Source of the DNA: Nocardioidaceae bacterium
GTDB lineage: Bacteria; Actinomycetota; Actinomycetes; Propionibacteriales; Nocardioidaceae
Length of the DNA stretch: 64,000 nt
NCBI GenBank assembly: GCA_018672315.1
Contig: CP076053.1
Location: forward strand, 1,661,827 to 1,725,826
Direction of reading: 5' to 3'
In this document: in pieces, positions 45,886-56,594 of the stretch
How the letters are laid out: each line of letters begins with the position of its first letter
Numbering within the stretch: the first letter of the stretch is position 1
Program-made: the position numbers and the translations under genes
Notes under the pieces: model-generated
Database searches by the model: none
The model's input: only the letters and a program-made list of their open reading frames with translations
What the model was told of the DNA's origin: nothing

Positions 45886-46066
45886 GTGAGGTCAGCTGTC
45901 GGGTTGGAGCCGGAAAGGTGCTCCGCCGCACGGGTGCGGCTTCACCCCGAGCGCCGGGCCGCTGGCGGCCTGGACGCGTGGTGATGTGGGTCCCCCACTC
46001 CTGCCCCGTGTGGTTGGTGGGTTGACAGGACCAGTTCACGGACGGGGCAGGACTCGGCGTACCCGG
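45886..46066 (-). ncRNA. ydaO-yuaA (c-di-AMP) riboswitch
   Basis: Read on the minus strand the leader contains the conserved blocks in order: GCCGAGTCCTGCCCCG, GGGGCAGGAGTGGGGGACCC, GGGGTGAAGCCGCACCC, GGCGGAGCACCTTTCCGGCT and CCAACCCGACAGCTGACCTC. These are the hallmarks of the ydaO class. It ends about 25 bases before the NlpC/P60 start. High c-di-AMP should switch the hydrolase off. Confidence 0.9.
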
Positions 46067-46151
46067 ACTGGCATGAAGTTGTGGTCGGGCACCCGACGGC
46101 GGGTGGCCCGGACAGCAACCCTGCCGGTCCGACGAGCGGAACCTCGCGAGG

Positions 46152-46957
46152 TCACGAGCAGGTAACGTAGACGGCGCAGGTCAGTCCCGCAAGTTCTAGC
46201 CGTTGACCGCTTCGTGGCGTGGTGCCCCGGCGAGATTTGATGGACCGCGGGAGTGGCGTGACCGAGGCGTGAGCTTTCGGTATCGCCCGGGACTCGCGCG
46301 GTCGAGCACGGCTTTCTGGCGCACGAGGATCGACTGCGCCTCGTAGACGATCGCCGCTTGCTCGTTTCCGCTGTCTCGCCGAGGCACGACGAAACGCGGG
46401 TGCCGTGGCGACGTTACTAGGAGTAGCTGTTGAGCCCCATCGCTCCTCCGGGCAGCGTTCCGCGACCGCAGCGTCGTCCGCGTCCGCCTCGCCCCGCCGG
46501 GGGAGATCGCGGCCCGGGCTTAGGGGGAGCGGACTGACCCGCTTCACTGTTGGACTCGGAGCGCGCGGGGACCTGATGGGACTACCGAGAGCCTGATTGG
46601 TGTGGATCCGCCGCTCGACCCCAAGCATTCGGGGGCTCCCGGCAGCAGCCCCCGCGTGCCGAGACGGCGACTTTGGCTTGCCCAGGTTCACTCGACCGTC
46701 GGATGTCACCCCCGGCCACCTTGCCGGGTCGTTGCAATGCCGCAACCCGGGTTGACAGTCGCTCACACGGGTGCAGCCCTTGGCGCAAAGCCATCCGGTG
46801 CACAGCTCCTCGGTCCGCAGAAAGTCCGCAGAAAGTTCGTCGGGACCCGTCGTCGAATCGAAGCGTTCAACAGATTCCGTCACGCGAACGCCCAGTTCAG
46901 CGGCTGTTTTCGTACGTCGCCATCAACTTCCAACGCAGCTCGAAAACCGGTCGCCGA
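46152..46957. other. Region without a supported gene, left of the att-like repeat
   Basis: About 800 bp. Several short frames but none with family features or a good start. A plus-strand frame ends FPWYY with its stop inside the att-like repeat; the same ending appears at the right-hand copy, so it reflects the repeat, not a gene. Confidence 0.4.
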
Positions 46958-46976
46958 CTTCCCCTGGTACTACTGA
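46958..46976 (+). repeat. att-like direct repeat, left copy
   Basis: CTTCCCCTGGTACTACTGA, matching the right copy at 56595-56613 in 18 of 19 positions. Together they bound a 9.6-kb segment with an integrase remnant. Probably an attL core; the exact crossover is unknown. Confidence 0.65.
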
Positions 46977-47019
46977 TCTTGCGCGTTTGCGCAGGCCAGA
47001 GGCCTATTCGGGACTCATG

Positions 47020-47037
47020 CGTGGCAGGTGCGTGGCA
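47020..47037 (+). repeat. Paired arm-type motifs near the left att-like repeat
   Basis: CGTGGCA occurs at 47020-47026 and again at 47031-47037, 11 bp apart. The same pair with the same spacing is at 56472-56489 beside the right repeat. GTTTGCGCAGG is also shared (46985-46995 and 56533-56543). These look like integrase arm-binding sites. Confidence 0.55.
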
Positions 47038-47189
47038 AGAATCGCTGTCGGGCGTTGAGACGATTGGGCGCACGGCGATCAATGACTCCTTCGCGGCTAA
47101 GCCAGCTCTGCGAGCCGTGAACGGCTGGTTCGGATTTCAACGTGCGACAAGATGGCGTACTCAACCGCAAGGAATCATCGGGAGGAATC

Positions 47190-48080
47190 GTGCCACAGCT
47201 CACGAACGGAGTCCTGGTCCTCATCGCATCCCCAGGTGACGCGGTTGAGGAACGGGCGGCGGTGCGTGAAGCGTTGGTCGACTGGAACATCACCCGTGGG
47301 CGACGGGAGCGCGTCGCACTTCTGCCGTGGCTGTTCGAGCGACACGCGGTGGCAAAGGTTGGCGACCGACCGCAGGCGATTATCAACGCGCAGGCCGTTG
47401 ACAAGGCCGACGTCGTCGTGGCGTTCTTCGACAGTCGACTCGGAACGGCAACGGAGGTGGACGTTTCGGGGACGGCCGAGGAGATCAACCGGGCCGCCGA
47501 CCTCGGCAAGCCAGTACATGTGTACTTCTCGGAGGAGCCGCTCCCCCGGGATGTCGACGGCGAGCAACTCGAGGCACTGAGAGCATTCCAAGCCGAGATG
47601 GAGCAGCGGGGACTGATGGGTCGTTACGCGGACCCAGCGGACCTGGTCGGCCAGGTGGTCCGCGCCATCGAATTGGACATCGAGGATGCCGGCTGGGCCG
47701 ATCCGAGTTCGCCCTCGACTGCGGAGGCCGGTGCCGACCTCGTCTGGAGACATATCCATGGGCGCGAGCCCAAGGGCTTCGACAAGCGGGGAAAGATGCA
47801 GTATCGGACGACGGCAAACGATCTCGTTGTCACCAACGACGGCTCGGTGCCCGCCGAGGAGTTGACGTTCGAGATCGTGGCTGTGGGCCCGACGCATTTC
47901 GCTTTCCCGGAGCCGCCCGACGGGCCTGTCACGGTCCATCCGCGCTCGAGCCTCTCGTGGACGCTCATTCCGACGCCGAGTTGGGGCGCGTCGGGTAGCA
48001 CCGTCGAGATCCGCGCCTCCTGGACGGAGAACGGCGAGCCAAAGCAGGCCATCAGGACGATCACCTTGGAGAGTGGTTAG
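47190..48080 (+). CDS. DUF4062-like protein with predicted nucleotide-sensor fold
   Basis: 296 aa from GTG at 47190, preceded by GGGAGGA. The N-terminal 150 residues follow a Rossmann-like, TIR/SLOG-type pattern seen in DUF4062-like proteins: GVLVLIASPGDAVEERAAVR, DRPQAIINAQAVDKADVVVA, FFDSRLGTATEVD, SGTAEEINRAADLGKPVHVY, FSEEPLPRD. The C-terminal part (about 200-296) is a beta-rich domain (NDLVVTNDGSVPAEELTFEI) of Ig-like character. Cytosolic. Proteins of this group are common in defence regions; an effector or sensor role is inference. It is the first gene inside the left att-like end. Confidence 0.72.
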   Translation: MPQLTNGVLVLIASPGDAVEERAAVREALVDWNITRGRRERVALLPWLFERHAVAKVGDRPQAIINAQAVDKADVVVAFFDSRLGTATEVDVSGTAEEINRAADLGKPVHVYFSEEPLPRDVDGEQLEALRAFQAEMEQRGLMGRYADPADLVGQVVRAIELDIEDAGWADPSSPSTAEAGADLVWRHIHGREPKGFDKRGKMQYRTTANDLVVTNDGSVPAEELTFEIVAVGPTHFAFPEPPDGPVTVHPRSSLSWTLIPTPSWGASGSTVEIRASWTENGEPKQAIRTITLESG

Positions 48081-48641
48081 CAGGGCTCGGCAAGCACCGG
48101 CGAGCCGGGACGCCCAGGCTTTCACGCCCTGGAGGCGACCCTCCTCAGCCATGAGGGAGCAGTCGGCCCAGATGGCGCTCTCCAGCTCAAGGAGAGTGGC
48201 AGTTGGGAAGTCGTGGTCGATCCACTTCGCGCGGTAGCCGGCCTCGCCCCATTCATCCAGCACCGCCCGCGCACCCGAGGCGATCGCGCGCTGGAACGCG
48301 ACCAGCGAGCACGTCGCGTCGAGCAGGACCTTGCCCTTCTCGTCGGGGTCCGGTCCCCAGAGCGAGTGGAACCAGAGAACTCGAACAGCCACCTGATCTC
48401 CGGAACGGTCGAGCACCCAGCGGAACTCGCCAGGTTCCTCTGCCCACGACACCCGAATCGTCGATTCTGCGTCAGGCAGGAGGACGGCAGCAGCGACCAG
48501 GTCCCCGAGCGCGTCATCGAGGTACGAAGCCGACAGCGGCGTCGAAGCGGCACCGATTGTCAGACGCGCTTCGCTCCACCCAGCTCCGGTCAGGCGGTAG
48601 GTGAACTCGACTTCGCGGCGGCCCTGCAATACGTCCCTCAC
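48081..48641 (-). CDS. Unknown protein gene lacking its own stop (3' end probably lost)
   Basis: ATG at 48641 overlaps the stop of the preceding gene (ATGA). About 185 codons look real (EFTYRLTGAGWSEARLTIG, AESTIRVSWAEEPGEFRWVL, VLLDATCSLVAFQRAIASGA); after about 48,100 the frame enters sequence antisense to the DUF4062-like gene and stays open to 47175, giving Arg-rich non-protein-like sequence. So the native 3' end was probably replaced when the neighbouring gene arrived. Family not recognised; it resembles the small soluble proteins of immunity clusters in composition. Confidence 0.5.
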
Positions 48642-49393
48642 CAGATCCAGTGCGCGCTCCGGATTCCGAGTTCGTCCTGGCCGCGCACGTACAGGCGGAC
48701 TGACTCGGGGCCCTTGACCGATGGACCACCGATTGGAAATGCCAGACGGTTCTCGCCGGAGTCGATCGCCACGTATTCACCCTCGACGACCGAGAGCTGC
48801 TCGACGGTCTTACCGATCAGCTGAGTGATCGAGGAAGGACCCACTCCCTGGCACCCGATGATGCCGAACGGCTCCGTGTAGCCCGTCAGGATGACGTCGT
48901 CCATGTGCACCTCGATGAAGTCGTGCACGAAGTTGATGCCCGTGATCTTCAGGCCGCGCACGGTGGCGTCCGCATCGTTGTTCAGCCCGCTCGTCGTCTC
49001 CGGAGCGGACAGTGCGGCCTGACCCTGGTCGCGCTGCCACGCGTGCCAGATCTCGGCAGAGACTGCTCGGTATCGCTCGATGGGGCCAGCCGTCTCGGGG
49101 TCGAACCACTGAACGAACGTCTCGTAGGTGAGCGCCCGGACGTCGTCGGCGTTCCGCGCATGCGGCAGGGCGATCACGATCGTCTCTGCCTCAGCGACGT
49201 ACTCGTCGGTGTTCGACTCGAAGTTGATTCCGATCGGGTCGGCTTCGAACAGAATCCGCGAGACCTCGGCAACCAGGTCGCGCCGGGTGACGGTTTGGGC
49301 GAAGCGTGACTCTTTCGCGGCCGTGATCGCCGCCTTGTGCTGGTCCCACTGCTCTTCAGCTGAGGGTGCCTTGGCGCGGCCGAACCACTTCAT
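48638..49393 (-). CDS. Unknown soluble protein, immunity-cluster type
   Basis: 251 aa, ATG at 49393. No signal peptide or membrane span. The N-terminal third is charged and helical (SAEEQWDQHKAAITAAKESR), the C-terminal half beta-rich (ITGINFVHDFIEVHMDDVIL, FGIIGCQGVGPSS, VYLRVRG-like ends). No family recognised. ATGA coupling with the following gene suggests a joint function. It begins 12 bp after the end of the integrase remnant. Confidence 0.6.
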   Translation of the reverse strand: MKWFGRAKAPSAEEQWDQHKAAITAAKESRFAQTVTRRDLVAEVSRILFEADPIGINFESNTDEYVAEAETIVIALPHARNADDVRALTYETFVQWFDPETAGPIERYRAVSAEIWHAWQRDQGQAALSAPETTSGLNNDADATVRGLKITGINFVHDFIEVHMDDVILTGYTEPFGIIGCQGVGPSSITQLIGKTVEQLSVVEGEYVAIDSGENRLAFPIGGPSVKGPESVRLYVRGQDELGIRSAHWIW

Positions 49394-49405
49394 TGGGCAA
49401 CTGTC

Positions 49406-50023
49406 TCATCGCGTCGTGGTCGCGGTCCCTCGACTTTCGTCTTTGCCCTCGACCGCGAGCACCTCGACCGCCATCCCCGCGGCGGCCGCCCGGGTCTTGT
49501 CCTCGGCCGTCGGCCAGAGGTGCGCGTAGGTGCTGAGCGTCGTCGTGGCGGAGGCGTGGCCCATCGCTCGCTGGACCGTGACGACGTCGCACCCGGCGGC
49601 GATCAGGCCGCTGGCGAAGTAGTGCCGCAGCTCGTGGAGCTTGTAGGCCACTCCGGCATCGGTACGGGTGGATCGCCAGCGGTAGTCCACGAGGTTGTCG
49701 TGCCATGGCCTGCCGACCTCATCGAACAGCCACCGCGACGGCTCGCCGTCCGGCGTGTGCACGCGGACGTGCTCGGCGAGGATCGCGATCACCTCGTCAG
49801 GCAGATAGATGGTCCGCTCCGATTCGTACTTCGGTGGGCGGATCACTACGGTGATCCCGCCTGCCGCTTCGACCAGGTTCTTCCCAGCCGCGACGTCAGG
49901 TGCCTTAGCTCGTTGCAGTTGGCGAGTGACGCGCAAGCTGCGCCCTAGGAAGTCGATGTCGCCGACCTGAACACCGAGCGCCTCGCCACGACGCAGCCCG
50001 ACGAAGGCACACAGTGCGACGTA
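49406..50023 (-). pseudogene. Tyrosine integrase, 5' part lost to an IS3 insertion
   Basis: The C-terminal catalytic domain is present: first Arg in FVGLRRGEALGV, the Lys region PPKYESERTIYLP, LHELRHYFASGL with the H-x-x-R box, MGHASATTTLSTYAHL with the second His and the nucleophilic Tyr. The SAM-like arm- and core-binding domains (roughly 150-200 residues) are missing: the reading frame runs straight into the IS3 left terminal repeat at 50024. It is thus a remnant. It probably once moved the segment bounded by the 46958 and 56595 repeats. Confidence 0.85.
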
Positions 50024-50092
50024 GGGACTGCTGCACGGATGGGTGACATCTGATCTGTGGTGCCGAGAGATGCCGCTGGAAGGATGTGCACC

Positions 50093-50386
50093 GTGCCCAA
50101 GCCCTATCCCCGAGAGTTCCGCGAGGACGTCGTCCGGGTCGCCCGGAACCGCGAGCCGGGAGTCCATCTCAAGCAGATCGCTGCCGACTTCGGGATCAGC
50201 GAGTCCTGTCTGACGAACTGGCTCAAGTCCGCTGACGGCGAGGACGGCGTCAGGCCCGGGACGACCGTCAGCGAGAACGCCGAGCTTCGCGATCTGCGCC
50301 GCCGCAATCGGCTGCTGGAGCAGGAGAACGAGGTCCTGCGTCGTGCCGCGGCGTATCTCTCGCAGGCGAACCTGCCGGGAAAATGA
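50093..50386 (+). CDS. IS3-family OrfA
   Basis: 97 aa from GTG at 50093 (VPKPYPREFREDVVRVARN); ATG at 50084 is possible. Helix-turn-helix (IAADFGISESCLTNWLKSAD) and a leucine-zipper-like end (LRDLRRRNRLLEQENEVLRR). It overlaps orfB by 4 bp, the usual frameshifting arrangement of IS3 elements. Intact, but no functional OrfB is encoded here. Confidence 0.88.
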   Translation: MPKPYPREFREDVVRVARNREPGVHLKQIAADFGISESCLTNWLKSADGEDGVRPGTTVSENAELRDLRRRNRLLEQENEVLRRAAAYLSQANLPGK

Positions 50387-51307
50387 TGTACCCGCTCGTC
50401 CGTGAGCTCGCCGCCGAGGGAATCCCGGTGTCGGTGACGTGCCGGGTCCTCAAGCTCGCCCGCCAGCCCTACTACCGATGGCTCGCGGCACCGGTCACGG
50501 ACGCTGAGTTGACCGAGGCGTACCGCGCGAACGCATTGTGGAACGCCCACGACGACGATCCCGAGTTCGGCTACCGGTTCCTGCTCGACGAAGCCAGCAG
50601 CGCCGGGCAGCCGATGGCAGAGCGGACCGCGTGGCGGATCTGCTCGAGCAACGGCTGGTGGAGCGCCTTCGGCAAACCCACGCGCGGGAAGGCCGGCCGT
50701 CCCGGTCCGCCCGTGCGCGACGACCTGTGCGCGGTGACCGACAAGCACGGCAGGGTGCGGCACTAGTTCCAAGCGGACGCTCCGAACCGGCTGTGGCTCA
50801 CCGACATCACCGAGCACCAGACCCGCGAGGGCAAGCTCTACCTCTGCGCCATCCCGTGACAGCAAGGACGCCTACTCCAACCGCATCGTCGGCTACTCGA
50901 TCGACTCACGCATGAAGTCGCGCCTCGCGGTCACCGCGCTCGAGTCCGCCGTGTCCAGGCGCCGCGTCGAGGACGCCGATGTCGCCGGCTGCATCGTGCA
51001 CAGCGACCGAGGCTCTCAATTCCGCAGCCGGAAATTCGGGCACGCTCTGAACCGCCACGGCCTCGTCGGATCGATGGGCCGCGTCGGCGCCGCCTGCGAC
51101 AACGCCGCCATGGAGAGGTTCTTCGCGCTGCTGCAACGCAACGTCCTCGACCGCCGCTCCTGGGCCACCCGCGAGGAGCTCCGGATCGCGATCGTCACCT
51201 GGATCGAACGGACCTACCACCGCCGCCGCAGACAAGCAGCGCTCGGCCGGTTGACCCCCATCGAGTACGAGACGATCATGACCACGACGGTTGCTCAGGC
51301 AGCCTGA
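50383..51307 (+). pseudogene. IS3-family OrfB, broken
   Basis: Reads MYPLVRELAAEGIPVSVTCR ... KHGRVRH, then a TAG at 50764-50766 in place of a sense codon; the same phase goes on FQADAPNRLWLTDITEHQTR. After YLCAI an extra CCGTGACAGC (10 bp, about 50854-50863) shifts the frame, and the rest (YSNRIVGYSIDSRMKSRLAV, VHSDRGSQF, MGRVGAACDNAAMERFFALL) is read in another phase to 51307. DDE residues are all encoded but not in one frame. Confidence 0.85.
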
Positions 51308-51340
51308 CCCAACCTGTCACCTGATCGTGCAGCAGTCCCG

Positions 51341-51526
51341 AACGTCAAGGCGAGCGGCGTCGGCTACGTGACGCGCTTCGATGTCGAGAAGGACTACCTA
51401 GACCAGTACGACGTCCAGCGCGCCGGCGGCGAGACGATCCTGGAGTACTGGATCCCGGCCGAGGACCTCGACGAGTTCAACCGGCACATCGTCGGTTTGA
51501 TCGAAGTCGTTTGCGAGTTCCGGTGA
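51341..51526 (+). pseudogene. 3' fragment of an ADP-ribosylation/crystallin J1-type gene
   Basis: 61 codons with no start, directly at the IS3 right end: NVKASGVGYVTRFDVEKDYL, DQYDVQRAGGETILEYWIPA, EDLDEFNRHIVGLIEVV. This is the C-terminus of a small actinobacterial family commonly labelled ADP-ribosylation/crystallin J1, whose N-terminal half is gone. The stop TGA (51524-51526) overlaps the start of the next gene (GTGA), so the two were translationally coupled. Confidence 0.7.
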
Positions 51527-52044
51527 GCGACTACGACGTCACGCCCGAGCAGGCGTCTCATGGTCGGGTCATCCCGGATCGCGACCTGCCGATGCTTGCG
51601 GCGCAGTGGTTGGTCGACGGCTACGATTCGCCGCTTCTGCGAGAGCTGGCGTCGCTGACATCAAGGGAGGCACTTGAAGGGAAGGTGCGCCTCGCCGACG
51701 TTCTGGCCGAGCTCGGCCATCCGATCCGTGACGTCGATTCCCCTTACGAACACCTACCGTGGCGTGGCCAGTGGGAGGGCATCTGGTGGGCGGTCGACCG
51801 CATGGACCGAACGCACAGGCCATATGCGTCAGCTCAGCATGTTCTCGAGATCATCGGTGACTACGAGGGCCTCTGGGAGCCCGGCGGTGGGGAAGCCCTG
51901 ATGGTTCTGCTGAAGGTTTGGGACGATCACCCAGATCAGCGCCCAGCGATCGACGACGAGATCCGCAGTCACCTCCGAGCACTTCAAGAAGACGATGTAC
52001 CTCCCCTGACGGCGAACGCGCAGCATGGGGAGGGAAGGTCATGA
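51523..52044 (+). CDS. Unknown soluble protein, immunity-cluster type
   Basis: 173 aa from GTG at 51523, overlapping the stop of the truncated gene before it. Acidic, helical, no membrane span: LPMLAAQWLVDGYDSPLLRE, VLAELGHPIRDVDSPYEHLP, Trp-rich WRGQWEGIWWAVDRMD. Family not recognised. It overlaps the polyimmunity-like gene (ATGA, 52041-52044). With its normal upstream partner truncated, expression may depend on readthrough from IS3. Confidence 0.6.
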   Translation: MSDYDVTPEQASHGRVIPDRDLPMLAAQWLVDGYDSPLLRELASLTSREALEGKVRLADVLAELGHPIRDVDSPYEHLPWRGQWEGIWWAVDRMDRTHRPYASAQHVLEIIGDYEGLWEPGGGEALMVLLKVWDDHPDQRPAIDDEIRSHLRALQEDDVPPLTANAQHGEGRS

Positions 52045-53039
52045 CGCAGCCGCATCGCGCGGAGGTCGAGAGGCTATGGGCGCAGCACCTTGCTCGACCA
52101 TTCCCGCCGGACCTGCGGGGAGTTGCTGTCGGCGATGTCGAGGTCGTGTTGCTCGACGCGGACATCGCGGGTTTCGTCTCGTCGTGGCTCGGGTCAGGAC
52201 GACTCGACCGGAACCGGCAGCGGGTCCTTGCGCAATGCATGGACGAGGCACGGAGATTGGCGACACTGCTCACGGATTCGACCGACGCCGCCTACTTTGC
52301 CGGTCTCCAGGGCCTCGCACGTGCTGTGCTCGACGCGGAGGACGCGCTGAGTGAGTTCCCGCCCCCGAGGGCCTACCTCGCGTGCCGTTGGACTCACTCG
52401 AACGCCGAAGACCCGGTGCTCATTCTCAGCGAGCTGGATGGGGCGCGATACGAGGTACGCAAGGTGCACGAGTTCGCCGATGGCAGGCTGGAGCGCGCGG
52501 ACCGCATCGCTGATGCGGCCACCTCGCTGAGTTGGGTGACAACACCGAGTGAGGCGGAGATCGACGCCCAAGAGCTCGAGGTTCTACCTCTGACCGCCGA
52601 CCAGTTCGAGGACAACTGGCGGCGAGCGATGCCGGTCGGACTGCCCATCCTCACCATCGACGGTGCCCGGTTCGATGACTTCGATGGGTTCGTGTCGCGC
52701 TTCTCAGGACTGCTCGACGACTTCGGGTGGCGGGGCAGCCTCGACGCCTTCAACGACATCCTCCGTGGCGGCTGCGGCACGCCGGACGGCGGCTTCGAGC
52801 TTCGCTGGTTGAACTCGGAGCGCTCACGAACTGCGCTCGGTTGGCCCGCCACGATTCGGTGGCTCGAGGACACCATCGACAGGTGTCATCCCTCCAACGC
52901 CCCGAGGTTCACGGCCGAACTCGAAGCCGCGAGACGCGGGGAGGGAACGACACTCTTCGACTGGATCGTCGAGATCATCGAGGCCCACGGCCCGGGTGGT
53001 GCCGAGGCAGAGGACAACGTGGTCCTGCGGCTGCTCTGA
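52041..53039 (+). CDS. Fusion protein: unknown N-terminus, DUF6881-like domain, barstar-like domain
   Basis: 332 aa, strong GGGAGGGAAGG ribosome site. Residues 1-110 unknown (AEVERLWAQHLARPFPPDLR). Residues about 112-165 match DUF6881: LACRWTHSNAEDPVLILSEL, then YEVRKVHEFADGRLERAD. Residues about 200-332 look barstar-like: LPILTIDGARFDDFDGFVSR, FGWRGSLDAFNDILRGG, then WLEDTIDRC. Barstar folds inhibit barnase-type RNases, and DUF6881 occurs in immunity settings, so this may be a polyimmunity protein that neutralises several toxins. Cytosolic. No barnase-like toxin is visible in the window. Domain names are pattern-based and need a profile search. Confidence 0.68.
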   Translation: MTQPHRAEVERLWAQHLARPFPPDLRGVAVGDVEVVLLDADIAGFVSSWLGSGRLDRNRQRVLAQCMDEARRLATLLTDSTDAAYFAGLQGLARAVLDAEDALSEFPPPRAYLACRWTHSNAEDPVLILSELDGARYEVRKVHEFADGRLERADRIADAATSLSWVTTPSEAEIDAQELEVLPLTADQFEDNWRRAMPVGLPILTIDGARFDDFDGFVSRFSGLLDDFGWRGSLDAFNDILRGGCGTPDGGFELRWLNSERSRTALGWPATIRWLEDTIDRCHPSNAPRFTAELEAARRGEGTTLFDWIVEIIEAHGPGGAEAEDNVVLRLL

Positions 53040-53075
53040 AGGCGATTGGTCGTCAGCCCGGCGTAGACTCAATGC

Positions 53076-53321
53076 ATGTCGCTGAGCGAGTCGGAGTTCT
53101 ACGAGGCGGGGATGTCCTTGCCTCCTGACGTGCGCAAGCACGTGGCTCTGCGGTTGCTCGAATCGGTCGATCCGGACGAGGCCTTCGGCCAGGCAGCGGA
53201 GGCGTGGCTTCGCACCGAGGCGGCCGCGGCGTACGACGCGCTCAAGGCTGACCCGTCCCGTGCGATCCCGGTCGAGGACGTTCGCGATCGCTTCGAGGCC
53301 AAGTGGGCCGCCCGTTCATGA
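53076..53321 (+). CDS. Antitoxin, addiction module component type
   Basis: 81 aa. Short helical protein with the family-typical central and C-terminal patterns LPPDVRKHVALRLLESVDPD, YDALKADPSRAIPVEDVRDR and FEAKWAAR. The stop overlaps the toxin start (ATGA, 53318-53321), the usual antitoxin-toxin order. It should bind and mask the ParE-type partner and repress the shared promoter. Confidence 0.85.
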   Translation: MSLSESEFYEAGMSLPPDVRKHVALRLLESVDPDEAFGQAAEAWLRTEAAAAYDALKADPSRAIPVEDVRDRFEAKWAARS

Positions 53322-53659
53322 CGGGGCGGATCAACCTCACTCCCGAAGCTGAACGGCAACTCAACGAGATCGACGACCGGATCGCATCGAAGGCGACCTC
53401 AAATATCGCTCGTCGCTTCGTGACCGCGATCCTTGAGCACATCGACGGGATCCTCGTGTTTCCCCGCGGTGGCCGTGCCCGCGACGACATACGTCCGGGC
53501 ATGCGGACAACGACGTACAAGAAGCGGACGCTGATCGCCTACGAGGTCGACGAGTCGTCGGACGAGCTCGTGGTCAATATCCTCGGCGTCTTCCACGGCG
53601 GCCAGAACTGGGAGGCCACCCTCAAAGAGGGGCAAGGCGTCTCGGACGCAGATGGATGA
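53318..53659 (+). CDS. ParE/RelE-superfamily toxin
   Basis: 113 aa from ATG at 53318. ParE/RelE pattern: INLTPEAERQLNEIDDRIAS, AILEHIDGILVFPRGGRARD, IRPGMRTTTYKKRTLIAYEV, VVNILGVFHGGQNWEA. ParE proteins poison DNA gyrase; RelE types cut mRNA; the sequence fits ParE slightly better. Translationally coupled to its antitoxin, so likely a stability module for the segment. Confidence 0.85.
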   Translation: MTGRINLTPEAERQLNEIDDRIASKATSNIARRFVTAILEHIDGILVFPRGGRARDDIRPGMRTTTYKKRTLIAYEVDESSDELVVNILGVFHGGQNWEATLKEGQGVSDADG

Positions 53660-53754
53660 GCCACCCCTGTATGGCGACTCCGCGGCTGGCCCCATAGCCA
53701 ACAGGATTCGTGAACGCCCGGGTCAGTGTCCTCCGACCCAGCGCGCCGGAGCCT

Positions 53755-54849
53755 CTACGTCAGCGCACTCATGCGGGCGCGAAGTTCTTGGCTGAGCTTG
53801 GCGGGGGTGACCTCTTTCCACGCAGGCGTCTTGATGCGCGTGCCGGCGGGCACTCGATGCGCCTGGACTAAAAGTCGGACGCCTTTTCCGGTCGGGACTG
53901 CGCACACCTTGAACGTGGCGGCTCCCGGCCGAATGCCAGTGAAGCATGTCGTGTGGCCGGGGCAGGGTGCGTCCCGCGTCCAGACCCGTGGAAGTCGGGT
54001 TCGGGATCCGATTGCGGACCCCAGGTCTGCTGGGGCTGCGTACCGGTTGGAGGGATTCGGGTCGATCGCTCTCATCACGATCTGACGCAATCCCAGGGGT
54101 ACGTGGGGTGCCACGTCGCCCAAGGGCCTTGGCGTGTGTGCGGCGACCATCGCCCATATCTGTTGGGGGGTCGCTCCGGCGGCTTCTGCCCGCTCGAGTT
54201 CAGGGTTGAGCGGGTGACCGGCAAGGAGCTGGTACAGCGTCGCGCCGAGGGAATAGACGTCGGTCCTGATGGTCGTGGGGTTCGCCCGCGCGACTTCTGG
54301 AGCCATCGTCTCGACGCTCCCGGCTGCGTGGCCGTTGCCGTTGGCGTCCCAGCGGCACGAGAGTCCGAGATCTCCGACTAGCACGTTGTCGTCGCCGTCG
54401 AGGAAGAGATTCGCAGGCTTGATGTCGTTGTGGAGGAGCCCGAGATCGTGGATACGGGAGACCCCTATGCACGCTTGCTGGGTCCACTTGGCGGCACGGT
54501 CGACAGCAACCCCGACGCCCGCCACAACAGCATCCGCGCAACTGCCGTTGTGCATGATCTCGGTGACGATGAACGGCACACCGGCGTCGTCGTCGGCGTT
54601 CAGTATGGGAAGGATGAAGTCCCCGCGCAGGCCGGTCAGCACCTCCGCTTCGAACCAGGTGCCTACCGGAGCGGCACGGTTGGCGTCCATCAGCTTGAGC
54701 GCTACCTGCTGCTTCTGCTTTTCGTCCCAAACCTCGTAGACGTGGCCGTTCTGTCCGCCACCGAGGTAGCCGTCGATGCGGTACCTGTTGTGGATTCGGC
54801 GCCCGAGCGGGGAGTTCCCGGGCAAGATGTTGGCGGTCTTACTCCACAA
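53755..54849 (-). CDS. Serine/threonine protein kinase with unknown C-terminal domain
   Basis: 364 aa. Kinase domain at about 20-280: Gly-loop LGGGQNGHVYEV, catalytic Lys52 (VALKLMD), HND140-142 catalytic loop (LLHNDIKPANLFL), DLG160-162 in place of DFG, and an activation loop ending APEVARANP. HRD is replaced by HND, which occurs in some bacterial kinases. No membrane span, unlike PknB types, so it is cytosolic. The C-terminal 75 residues hold CPGHTTCFTG with two Cys and AATFKVCAVPTGKGVRLLV and look like a small separate domain. It is divergent from the gene at 54866 (17 bp between starts), which suggests a two-gene module with one shared control region. Confidence 0.88.
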   Translation of the reverse strand: MWSKTANILPGNSPLGRRIHNRYRIDGYLGGGQNGHVYEVWDEKQKQQVALKLMDANRAAPVGTWFEAEVLTGLRGDFILPILNADDDAGVPFIVTEIMHNGSCADAVVAGVGVAVDRAAKWTQQACIGVSRIHDLGLLHNDIKPANLFLDGDDNVLVGDLGLSCRWDANGNGHAAGSVETMAPEVARANPTTIRTDVYSLGATLYQLLAGHPLNPELERAEAAGATPQQIWAMVAAHTPRPLGDVAPHVPLGLRQIVMRAIDPNPSNRYAAPADLGSAIGSRTRLPRVWTRDAPCPGHTTCFTGIRPGAATFKVCAVPTGKGVRLLVQAHRVPAGTRIKTPAWKEVTPAKLSQELRARMSALT

Positions 54850-54865
54850 GGTAGGGGAAGGCGTC

Positions 54866-55357
54866 GTGCGAGCTCTGGGTCTTCACGTCGATGTGCCGAC
54901 GCAGATGCGACCCGTGGTCCGGGTCGTTCTTCTGAATGATCCGTTCGATGCGGCTCAGGTGCCGGCCCTGGGTGACGTGACCGTCGAGACCGAGTTCGAC
55001 CTGACGTTGCCGGACGACGACTGGGCTGAGCTGGCCAGCGGCTACTTCCGAGCCGTGTCTGGTCGCGTTTCCACCTTGAGCCCCGACATCGTCATCGTGC
55101 GCCGCGCCGATATGTCGGCGCGTCCAACCAACAAGGACGGCCCGCGGCTACGGCTGGTCGTCGAAGGCGCCGTGACGGCTGCCGCCCACGAGCACGTCGC
55201 GAACACGCACCTTAGGACTGGTGTGGCGTGCGCGCACGCCTACAACCGGTCGGGCAAGGCTGCGCTGGACGCTGACGGCGTCGGTCTCGTCGAGCGGAGC
55301 AACCGCGGTCCGGCAGCGGCCGCTGCATTGTCCGGTCTGGTCGACAAGCGGGTCTGA
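54866..55357 (+). CDS. Unknown partner of the kinase, possible RNase H-like fold
   Basis: 163 aa from GTG at 54866 with GGGGAAGG upstream; the longer frame to 54776 overlaps the kinase start. Alternating strands and helices: VVRALGLHVDVPTQMRPVVR, LSPDIVIVRRADMSARPTNK, LRLVVEGAVTAAAHEHVANT, then AAAAALSGLV. The order and the VEGAV...VNT helix recall RuvC/RNase H-like resolvase-type proteins, but catalytic acids are not clear, so this is tentative. An eight-T run (about 55375-55382) follows the stop and may end transcription. Confidence 0.6.
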   Translation: MRALGLHVDVPTQMRPVVRVVLLNDPFDAAQVPALGDVTVETEFDLTLPDDDWAELASGYFRAVSGRVSTLSPDIVIVRRADMSARPTNKDGPRLRLVVEGAVTAAAHEHVANTHLRTGVACAHAYNRSGKAALDADGVGLVERSNRGPAAAAALSGLVDKRV

Positions 55358-55411
55358 GTGCTGCGTTCAGGGGCCTTTTTTTACCTCTGGCCACGCCTCT
55401 GGTCCGGTCGG

Positions 55412-55915
55412 TTAGGCCGTGGGTCCGTCGGGGGAGAGCAGCTGCGTGAGTGCGTGGGAGTACCCGTCGGTGACGTCGTCGAGTGTGTCGGCGTCGGTCG
55501 AGGCGGTCTTCAGCATCGCTAGCAGATCGGATGCGACATCGATGAGCTTGCGATTGCGTGCGCGTTCGGCGCGGATCTGGTCTCGGAGAACGTCGAGCTT
55601 GACCTTGAGCTCCTGTGCGGCGGCACGAACTTGGTCGTCCGCCGCCGGGTTCGCCGAGCCAGCGGTGGGCGACGGGCCGGCGAGCCCACCGCGGCTCGTC
55701 TTCGTACGAGCGTCTGCAGCGGCTGCGCGCGAGCGCAGAAGTCGATCGACGCTATCGCGGGTCACGCGGCCGGAGTTTGGAGGGAACCGGAGCCGTCCAG
55801 GGGGGCGTTCGGGGCCCTCGAGTTCGTCGGCGAGAAGTAGTTGATGGACCCGTTGGGTTGAGACGTTCAGGGCGTCGGCGGCCTCTGCCAGGGTTAGGAG
55901 ACGAGACCTTGCCAT
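55412..55915 (-). CDS. Helix-turn-helix regulator with coiled-coil tail
   Basis: 167 aa, ATG at 55915. N-terminal HTH of excisionase/MerR-like type (LLTLAEAADALNVSTQRVHQ, LLLADELEGPERPPGRLRFP), a Ser/Ala-rich linker, then a coiled coil (VRAAAQELKVKLDVLRDQIR, AERARNRKLIDVASDLLAML). It could act as an excisionase-like or regulatory protein of the integrated segment. Divergent from the gene at 55995, with 10-bp inverted repeats between them that may be its operator. Confidence 0.75.
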   Translation of the reverse strand: MARSRLLTLAEAADALNVSTQRVHQLLLADELEGPERPPGRLRFPPNSGRVTRDSVDRLLRSRAAAADARTKTSRGGLAGPSPTAGSANPAADDQVRAAAQELKVKLDVLRDQIRAERARNRKLIDVASDLLAMLKTASTDADTLDDVTDGYSHALTQLLSPDGPTA

Positions 55916-55921
55916 GAGAAC

Positions 55922-55988
55922 AGTATGTAAGGAAGTGCTTGTGATGTCAGCGCGTCGAAGCCCGCTTGACTGCAGCGACTTACATACT
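55922..55988. promoter_or_regulatory. Widely spaced inverted repeats in a divergent promoter region
   Basis: AGTATGTAAG at 55922-55931 and its complement CTTACATACT at 55979-55988, 47 bp apart. They lie next to the starts of the HTH gene (-) and the gene at 55995 (+) and fit a pair of regulator half-sites. Confidence 0.6.
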
Positions 55989-55994
55989 TACTCC

Positions 55995-56405
55995 ATGACT
56001 CACCAGCTGCTCATGAGCGTGCTGGACGCGCAGCGCGCGAACGCAACCCTCGCGGGCGGCGATCTTCGTGCAGCTGCCGAACACCTCGCAGATCTGTGCT
56101 CGGAACGGCGCGTCCTGTTGATGGCCGTCGACAATGCGGGCGAGCGGATCATCGGCGCGGCGATGACCGTCGCGGAGGTCGACCTCGACGTCTACGACTA
56201 CACAAGCGGCTTTCCCCAAGGTTCGACCTGTCTGCTGGTCGGTGGGCACGCGGCTGGCCCTGTGAGGCTGGCTGACGCTGCTGCGGCGGCTTTGTCCGCC
56301 GGCGCGGCTCAAGTCGAGGCGGCGATCCTGGGAGGGTGGCCCGATCCTGTGCCAGGGGTTGCCCAGATCAGAGGCTTTCGGAGCTCACAGTTCTGCGTGG
56401 CGTAG
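55995..56405 (+). CDS. Unknown soluble protein at the right end of the integrated segment
   Basis: 136 aa from ATG at 55995; the longer frame from 55938 crosses the inverted repeats and is less likely. Mixed strand/helix pattern: RRVLLMAVDNAGERIIGAAM, LDVYDYTSGFPQGSTCLLVG, AALSAGAAQVEAAILGGWPD. It resembles the second half of phosphoribosyltransferase-like or Rossmann folds but no binding motif is present. Divergent from the HTH gene and probably regulated with it. Confidence 0.55.
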   Translation: MTHQLLMSVLDAQRANATLAGGDLRAAAEHLADLCSERRVLLMAVDNAGERIIGAAMTVAEVDLDVYDYTSGFPQGSTCLLVGGHAAGPVRLADAAAAALSAGAAQVEAAILGGWPDPVPGVAQIRGFRSSQFCVA

Positions 56406-56471
56406 CGCCGTTGCAGCGACCCGGTCCAGTCGAGTTGGGTCGATTCGTGTTGCGATCGCAGTGGGTTGGTG

Positions 56472-56489
56472 CGTGGCAGAAACGTGGCA
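56472..56489 (+). repeat. Paired arm-type motifs near the right att-like repeat
   Basis: CGTGGCA at 56472-56478 and 56483-56489, with the same 11-bp period as at 47020-47037. Confidence 0.55.
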
Positions 56490-56594
56490 GGAGAGTCATC
56501 GCAGGTCATCGACCACCAACGCCGACAGTCACGTTTGCGCAGGTCAACCGCATAGTGCCGTCAGCAATCGTTACCAGCCGCTGAGCGTGCCGCG

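Follow-up and report, generated by a model that had tools for sequence, protein, structure and literature searches.

Among the kinases of antiphage defense, PD-T4-6 is a single-gene system. Stk2 is likewise a single gene, and the kinase-kinase-phosphatase (KKP) module of prophages is described as both antiphage and toxin–antitoxin-like and as regulating a co-resident prophage (PMC11341870). In DS-6, a HipA-like kinase is accompanied by an unrelated partner that is predicted to bind DNA (PMC13092281). Phosphoribosyltransferases (PRTases) also occur in such settings: type III retrons combine a PRTase with winged-helix effectors, Retron-Sda1 having a HipA-like kinase pair instead (PMC12548924), DprA is found with a PRTase in a defense setting (PMC9122126), the PRTase domains of mobile elements have been suggested to make or sense a nucleotide (PMC5512222), and the genotoxic PRTase domain of RqlH has been probed through its DIVD loop (PMC4670107). 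Here we describe a mobile module of three genes, identified in a stretch of 64,000 nucleotides from a Nocardioidaceae bacterium (contig CP076053.1; hereinafter, the window), in which a Ser/Thr protein kinase is encoded head to head with a partner of predicted RuvC fold and is accompanied by a third protein of predicted type I PRTase fold. None of the cited precedents (KKP, DprA with PRTase, the retrons, DS-6 and the PRTases of mobile elements) combines the parts found here. No paper describing this gene set was recognized in searches of the open-access PMC literature, which does not prove its absence from print, and the module is apparently undescribed. The initial annotation of the window had called the pairing of kinase and partner unfamiliar; the pair proves to be conserved and mobile, and it carries no accepted name in the libraries searched.

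The module resembles KKP in being small, mobile and multi-gene, with a Ser/Thr kinase as the putative effector, but KKP consists of two kinases, with CSD and FHA domains, and a phosphatase, whereas the module has one kinase and two predicted pseudoenzymes. No second kinase or phosphatase family is common to the flanks of the modules, phosphatases not having been sought by profile. With type III retrons and the DprA–PRTase combination, the module shares a PRTase-fold protein in a defense setting, and with retrons also a DNA-binding neighbor; unlike the retrons, it joins a kinase to a PRTase-like gene, and its loop for phosphoribosyl pyrophosphate (PRPP) is degenerate. A crude scan for reverse-transcriptase motifs within 7 kb of the 19 modules delineated below produced two matches, one inside a module kinase and one in a 228-aa open reading frame (ORF) of locus L057, neither of them convincing. 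As to the parts, the partner resembles the RuvC resolvase (PF02075) in its predicted fold over the whole protein and differs from it in that the acidic residues are largely gone and that it adjoins a kinase; the third protein resembles the type I PRTases and PRPP synthetases (PF00156) in predicted fold and in a profile match at the PRPP loop, but the acidic pair of this loop is never complete.

Single-sequence searches with the window partner gave no accepted match beyond its own genome among plasmids, phages, the genome_contigs collection and 147 relatives, so that profiles were needed to find its homologs; the sole match in another genome among the 147 relatives (G073) was rejected by eye as a shadow ORF. 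A two-sequence profile was run against 391 genomes of the order, a six-sequence profile against 394 genomes of the class, and a nine-sequence profile against 251 genomes of one family and 296 of the phylum. Dropped as chance matches were 5 of 12 places in the order search (L011–L015, of which L011 was inspected by eye and the others had no kinase match), 5 of 11 in the class search (only L028 inspected singly) and 3 of 9 in the family search (L043, L044 and L045, only L043 inspected). Module-bearing genomes then numbered 6 of 391, 5 of 394, 6 of 251 (one of these truncated by the end of its contig) and 1 of 296, the last being the source genome itself. In addition, a clade-profile scan of a named genome collection yielded 10 loci from 146 pattern matches, in Mycolicibacterium wolinskyi, a Nocardioides metagenome-assembled genome, three Arthrobacter, Rhodococcus sp. 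06-462-5, Occultella aeris, Mycobacterium sp. D16Q14, Tsukamurella spumae and Gordonia polyisoprenivorans. Collapsing near-identical loci (L059 and L061 into L060, L021 into L020) and counting once those retrieved twice (e.g., L025, L034, L037 and L052) left 19 distinct modules that span several actinobacterial families; a plasmid copy, L110, stands outside this set.

In every one of the 18 distinct modules whose contig reaches the kinase, kinase and partner are arranged head to head; the contig of the 19th (L060) ends short of the kinase. Recurrence in 18 distinct homologous loci shows that the arrangement exceeds chance. The two genes lie on opposite strands with gaps of 21–60 nt in all 18 (starts picked by script). 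In the window, both ORFs are where the initial annotation had placed them, and the 16-bp separation that it gave holds for the assigned starts; both starts are non-ATG and uncertain, and the gap would be 40 bp if the kinase began at the TTG at 54825. The same genome contains a second, diverged copy (L004) 221 kb away, again head to head, with a kinase 34% and a partner ~33% identical to those of the window. The initial proposal would have fallen if the partner were not conserved beside the kinase in other genomes; it is conserved there, and this holds in both directions of search. The reverse search, with a profile of the kinase C-terminal domain against the 394 class genomes, found six confident places, the same as with the partner profile, and a seventh, L108, that was rejected as a shadow ORF. 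Because the profiles were built partly from these loci, recovering them was expected, and the weight of the result lies in the lack of extra copies: no further copy of the C-terminal domain without the partner was detected in these 394 genomes.

The unit, however, is not just a pair, as had been assumed: a homolog of the PRTase-like gene is present in all 19 modules, and a DNA-binding gene often accompanies it. In four modules, the PRTase-like gene immediately follows the partner on the same strand; in the window and its relatives, a helix-turn-helix (HTH) gene comes in between, and in nine modules the gene converges with the partner. In five of these nine (L035, L036, L048, L049 and L050), which make up one whole clade, partner and PRTase-like gene overlap in antisense by 48–54 nt (stop codons excluded). 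In an all-against-all comparison, the flank families common to at least three loci were the module genes, the HTH gene, their shadow ORFs, an integrase and a transposase family. The three proteins diverge in step, their pairwise distances being correlated (r = 0.91, 0.91 and 0.87; 0 of 2000 Mantel permutations in each case, n = 18). The ratio of nonsynonymous to synonymous rates (dN/dS) is 0.06–0.20 in two close pairs where both rates are computable, indicating purifying selection; this range leaves out the L054/L055 kinase, NG86 gave no defined dS in one case, and the dS of L054/L055 is close to saturation.

The initial annotation had suggested a possible RNase H fold for the partner, and the AlphaFold2 model built from eight sequences (predicted local distance difference test [pLDDT] 89.2, predicted template modeling score [pTM] 0.87) indeed has the RNase H-fold order of strands and helices. 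Foldseek returned 12 matches at E ≤ 0.001, all to RuvC, and VIA superimposed the model on the RuvC of D. radiodurans with Z 16.8 and a root mean square deviation of 3.0 Å over 145 residues aligned of 154. At the sequence level, hhalign of the partner family against ten RuvCs of related genomes gave E 3.6e-4 with a probability of only 37, and placed the partner RRAD motif on the catalytic Glu of the RuvC ERVF motif; the Pfam RuvC profile was matched by 2 of the 19 partners (best E 0.005). The window partner itself produced nothing in Pfam at E ≤ 1, no match in NCBIfam or PADLOC and none accepted in PHROGs. The RNase H acids, the search for which had been proposed along with the fold, are largely absent across the family and are all missing from the window protein. 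Asp occupies the β-1 position in 1 of 18 members; the β-4 catalytic Glu is found in none of 19, being replaced by Arg or Lys in 16, with a Glu one column later in 3 of 19 (one of several possible alignment shifts); both helix-C Asp positions are Ala in all 19. The β-4 register was taken from hhalign and the β-1 and helix positions from the motif register (LGxD; DAADAL vs AxxAAL), not from a structural alignment. Arg96, Glu100 and Gly101 are invariant in all 19, and the site looks remade rather than decayed. Taken together, the models and residue counts point to a predicted RuvC fold from which most of the resolvase acids have disappeared, which makes nuclease activity of the partner unlikely.

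For the third protein, the PDB matches of a 19-member profile at E ≤ 10 comprised 33 sequences, 30 of them named as PRTases, PRPP synthetases or PurF; the two strongest (2.1e-4) align on the PRPP loop. The AlphaFold2 model of the window protein (pLDDT 82.0, pTM 0.69) had PRTases, PyrR, PurF or PRPP synthetases in all of its best 50 Foldseek rows (best E 1.4e-3), and VIA gave Z 9.9. In profile–profile comparison with PRTases, the 19 members together reached a probability of 68 and the window sub-clade alone a weak 4.6; as a negative check, the 19 members compared with RuvC gave 0.4. None of Pfam, NCBIfam, PADLOC and PHROGs yielded an accepted match for the window protein. No member of the 19 has both acids of the PRPP loop, the second being always absent and the first (D or E) present in seven; the window loop, LLVGGHAAG, has neither. 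The third gene accordingly encodes a protein of predicted type I PRTase fold with an incomplete acidic pair, which disfavors an active PRTase effector.

The HTH protein of the window matches Pfam HTH_17 (2.9e-5; 24.7 bits, below the 27-bit cut-off) and the PHROG excisionase (2.8e-5), and its tail has a coiled-coil look by eye. An HTH_17-type gene is matched by profile in 6 of the 19 modules. By reading, three further modules have winged-helix proteins, and the second copy of the source genome has a ribbon-like one; Pfam gave no match for either of the two such proteins tested.

The kinase contains the HND and DLG active-site motifs and the Cys-bearing C-terminal part that had been attributed to it (Cys296, Cys302 and Cys316), and no membrane-length hydrophobic stretch was seen by eye (no transmembrane predictor was used). 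The Hanks-type residues (Lys, Glu, HxD, KxxN, DxG) are present in the module kinases: K, E, H, D, K, N and D are invariant in 18 of 18 relatives and the G of DxG is kept in 16, the HxD motif being HND in 7 and HRD in 11. By these residues, the active site is intact. In the C-terminal domain, the [HC]xxHxxC...C pattern retains two Cys in 18 of 18 and the middle His in 17, which suggests metal binding; no good sequence match was found in the PDB, the only one having E 0.76. The kinase domain resembles the defense kinases in PADLOC, with PD-T4-6 (1.8e-42), mad6 (6.8e-39) and PglW (1.2e-13) among its matches, PD-T4-6 being the best; the best stretches, in the 25 rows listed, end at or before residue 313, so that the C-terminal domain lies outside nearly all of them. 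The likeness to PD-T4-6 is that of the kinase-domain profile only, and the same is true of PglW of the bacteriophage exclusion system (BREX) and MAD6 of the MADS system; the other module genes match none of these systems. Of nine window proteins (51.5–57.2 kb) compared with PADLOC, none but the kinase (many kinase models, mad6 among them) and, weakly, the HTH protein (mad1, 4.3e-5) had a match; PglW matched the kinase domain alone, and no other BREX model was found among the nine. Elsewhere, one of the 134 flank proteins described below matched mad3 and an L018 methyltransferase matched mad2 (2.4e-13). Phage records matched by the kinase numbered 37, all below 60% identity, with the matches listed covering mostly the kinase domain.

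The module has moved recently between genera. A 4.5-kb block that comprises the partner, a transposase, the HTH gene and the PRTase-like gene is 99.8–99.98% identical in Mycobacterium sp. D16Q14, T. spumae and G. polyisoprenivorans (L059:1-4542, L060:125-4666 and L061:1-4508); in all three, it begins at the end of a contig. Another pair of genomes has in common a block of at least 11 kb, 99.9% identical, that ends ~250 bp past the kinase, while four other aligned blocks of the same two genomes are 85–90% identical. The kinase and partner trees contain the same three main groups, the two copies of the source genome falling into separate ones; M. wolinskyi is placed by the kinase tree with Nocardioides rather than with the rest of its family. 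In a copy carried by the conjugative Rhodococcus plasmid pLW2 (L110:5252-7978), an IS1380 insertion sequence (IS) interrupts the module kinase, and the partner (7.6e-47), annotated as 'hypothetical protein', and a PRTase-like stretch (8.4e-7) remain. A viral origin was rejected, three pattern scans of viral contigs having found no relative.

To assess the neighborhood, proteins of at least 120 aa (simple gene caller) with midpoints within 4.5 kb of a module, 134 from the 19 modules, were compared with PADLOC at E ≤ 1e-10, along with 119 of 120 proteins (one long protein omitted) from the middle 9 kb of 18 regions chosen at random in nine of the module-bearing genomes; the control proteins are longer on average than the flank proteins. 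The flanks matched 78 redundant families, the best 25 of which include LmuC, PglZ, BrxL, JetA, JetB, the CBASS (cyclic oligonucleotide-based antiphage signaling) cyclase, AbiU, PDC-S29 and mad3. Named defense genes lie within 4.5 kb in 6 of the 19 modules and, under the same reading, in none of the 18 random regions (one-sided P = 0.012, counting only matches read as true systems): PglZ and BrxL of BREX at L048, JetA of Wadjet at L056, a CBASS cyclase at L017, AbiU at L057, a type II methyltransferase and a HEC-05-like protein at L018, and LmuC of Lamassu at L052. Among flank proteins scanned singly, 3 of the first ten had no match, and the second ten gave one weak match (L055, cll, 2.6e-15). 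At L048 (5558-9016), the module kinase ends ~190 bp after brxL, with pglZ before it; in the close relative L036, no BREX gene was seen by eye in the stretch listed. Beside the second copy of the source genome (L004:10446-10886), a 147-aa ORF looks, to the eye alone, like the C terminus of a type I restriction subunit, with no match in Pfam.

Two regulators that keep their folds but few of their catalytic residues, beside a complete kinase, present the pattern of sensor or adaptor pseudoenzymes. We tentatively favor, at somewhat less than even confidence, the interpretation that the locus is a mobile conflict or abortive-infection module, with a soluble Ser/Thr kinase as effector and the two pseudoenzymes as its regulators. 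The RuvC-like protein would bind a DNA shape, such as replication or recombination intermediates of the invader, or the kinase, or both, and would keep the kinase quiet; the PRTase-like protein may supply a second input by binding a nucleotide or a PRPP-like ligand; and expression would be set by the HTH, winged-helix or ribbon protein in those modules that have one. An invading replicon that signals or upsets the balance would release the kinase, which would phosphorylate host targets and stop growth, an arrest modeled by analogy on kinase-based abortive infection. The fully specified version, in which the dead resolvase is a sensor of DNA shape, the dead PRTase a nucleotide sensor and the cytosolic kinase an effector with a dedicated metal-binding docking domain, would amount to a new type of immune or conflict switch in prokaryotes, but is a doubtful proposition as it stands.

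Several observations count against the conflict interpretation. The ligands, the DNA binding and the inhibition of the kinase are guesses, and a head-to-head layout is unusual for toxin–antitoxin operons. One partner keeps the β-1 Asp and three have a Glu one column past β-4, and the first acid of the PRPP loop persists in 7 of the 19 PRTase-like proteins, so that the loss of chemistry is clearest for the proteins of the window itself. The PRTase-like model has low TM-scores (≤0.46 by query length) and no Foldseek row at E ≤ 0.001. No defense gene could be named within 4.5 kb of 13 of the 19 modules, judging from the best 25 of 78 families and 20 proteins scanned singly. The controls match 8 redundant PADLOC families, namely mad3 (two proteins, best 1.2e-75), mad8, four IetA, GlgB and TRIP13, so that the contrast in defense genes rests on the reading of real systems and would be weakened by a count of any match. 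Finally, no relative was found in the viral contigs scanned, nor in phage records queried with two members. The defensive role that had been raised as a possibility at the outset is inferred from neighbors and mobility.

The same parts might instead serve the elements that carry them, the kinase and the DNA-binding gene controlling excision, transfer or stability, with any defense as a by-product. The resemblance of the HTH protein to excisionases fits this explanation, as do the integrases near L035, L055 and the window module, the transposases near L056, L060 and L036 (the last by eye) and the copy on a conjugative plasmid; KKP, moreover, both regulates a co-resident prophage and defends (PMC11341870). 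Yet the flanks have no common element backbone, the HTH gene is matched in only 6 of the 19 modules, and no integrase was noticed by eye around L004 and L048, where no systematic search was made; we rate a role in element maintenance as possible but rather unlikely. Alternatively, the module could belong to stress signaling of the host, with the dead RuvC sensing branched DNA, the dead PRTase sensing PRPP or (p)ppGpp and the kinase adjusting repair or growth, the defense neighbors being incidental. The folds of both pseudoenzymes and the purifying selection agree with this, and the second copy of the source genome has dnaB and further genes of apparent housekeeping function nearby. The sporadic occurrence in the order and class genomes, the recent transfers and the defense neighbors of six modules make such a role improbable.

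A plain kinase toxin–antitoxin (addiction) module, in which the RuvC-like protein would be the antitoxin and island stability the function, has a precedent in DS-6, where the kinase partner is unrelated and predicted to bind DNA (PMC13092281), and is favored by pLW2, on which the kinase is interrupted while the partner and a PRTase-like stretch persist. This explanation appears quite improbable, given that three genes rather than two are conserved, that their layout is divergent and not operonic, and that a single IS case is weak evidence. That unrelated genes merely abut might be suspected from the failure of the window partner and third gene to find accepted matches in Pfam, NCBIfam, PADLOC and PHROGs; chance abutment is nevertheless ruled out, for practical purposes, by the co-occurrence in 18 of 18 and 19 of 19 modules, the reciprocal search and the correlated divergence.

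With the module delineated, two families without an accepted match in those four libraries gain a predicted fold, a linked kinase and an evolutionary unit. Coupled to a kinase, a dead RuvC would offer a direct means of reading recombination or replication intermediates of invading DNA, and the role of a dead PRTase would be that of a nucleotide sensor. The cassette, of ~2.6 kb, would offer a defined system for asking how Ser/Thr kinases near defense genes are switched on.

The features of the window locus are listed in the table below. The setting looks mobile, as had been supposed, in view of the integrase-like ORF, the IS3-like element, the antitoxin/ParE pair and the lower GC content (65.8% in 46001–56500 vs 69.9% in the remaining window); no convincing att-like direct repeats were found around the module.

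Features of the kinase locus in the window (positions within the 64,000-nucleotide stretch)
Feature	Coordinates	Strand	Basis or remark
Ser/Thr protein kinase, 364 aa	53755-54849	-	TTG start; Pfam Pkinase 5.5e-35; predicted effector
Kinase C-terminal domain, possible metal-binding	53758-54003	-	[HC]xxHxxC-x(12-16)-C
Divergent intergenic stretch between kinase and partner, 16 bp	54850-54865	.	Assigned TTG and GTG starts
Partner of predicted RuvC fold (putative pseudo-resolvase), 163 aa	54866-55357	+	GTG start; AlphaFold2, Foldseek, VIA, residue counts
HTH_17/excisionase-like DNA-binding protein	55412-55915	-	Pfam HTH_17, PHROG excisionase
Protein of predicted PRTase fold (putative pseudo-PRTase), 163 aa	55914-56405	+	AlphaFold2, Foldseek, VIA, family profile
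IS3-like element (by reading)	50024-51339	+	25-nt terminal inverted repeats, 50024-50048 and 51315-51339
Integrase-like ORF	49406-50167	-	Runs into the IS3-like element; clusters with an integrase of L055
Addiction-module antitoxin and ParE-type toxin	53076-53659	+	Pfam Unstab_antitox 8e-6, ParE_toxin 5.3e-13

The integrase-like ORF looks truncated by the IS3-like element. The antitoxin/ParE pair directly adjoins the 3' end of the kinase and is not among the families common to at least three loci. Upstream of it, a 360-aa ORF (51957-53036) with a DUF6881 match (2e-18) is an immunity-protein-like neighbor, part of which is weakly barstar-like (0.0017, under the cut-off).

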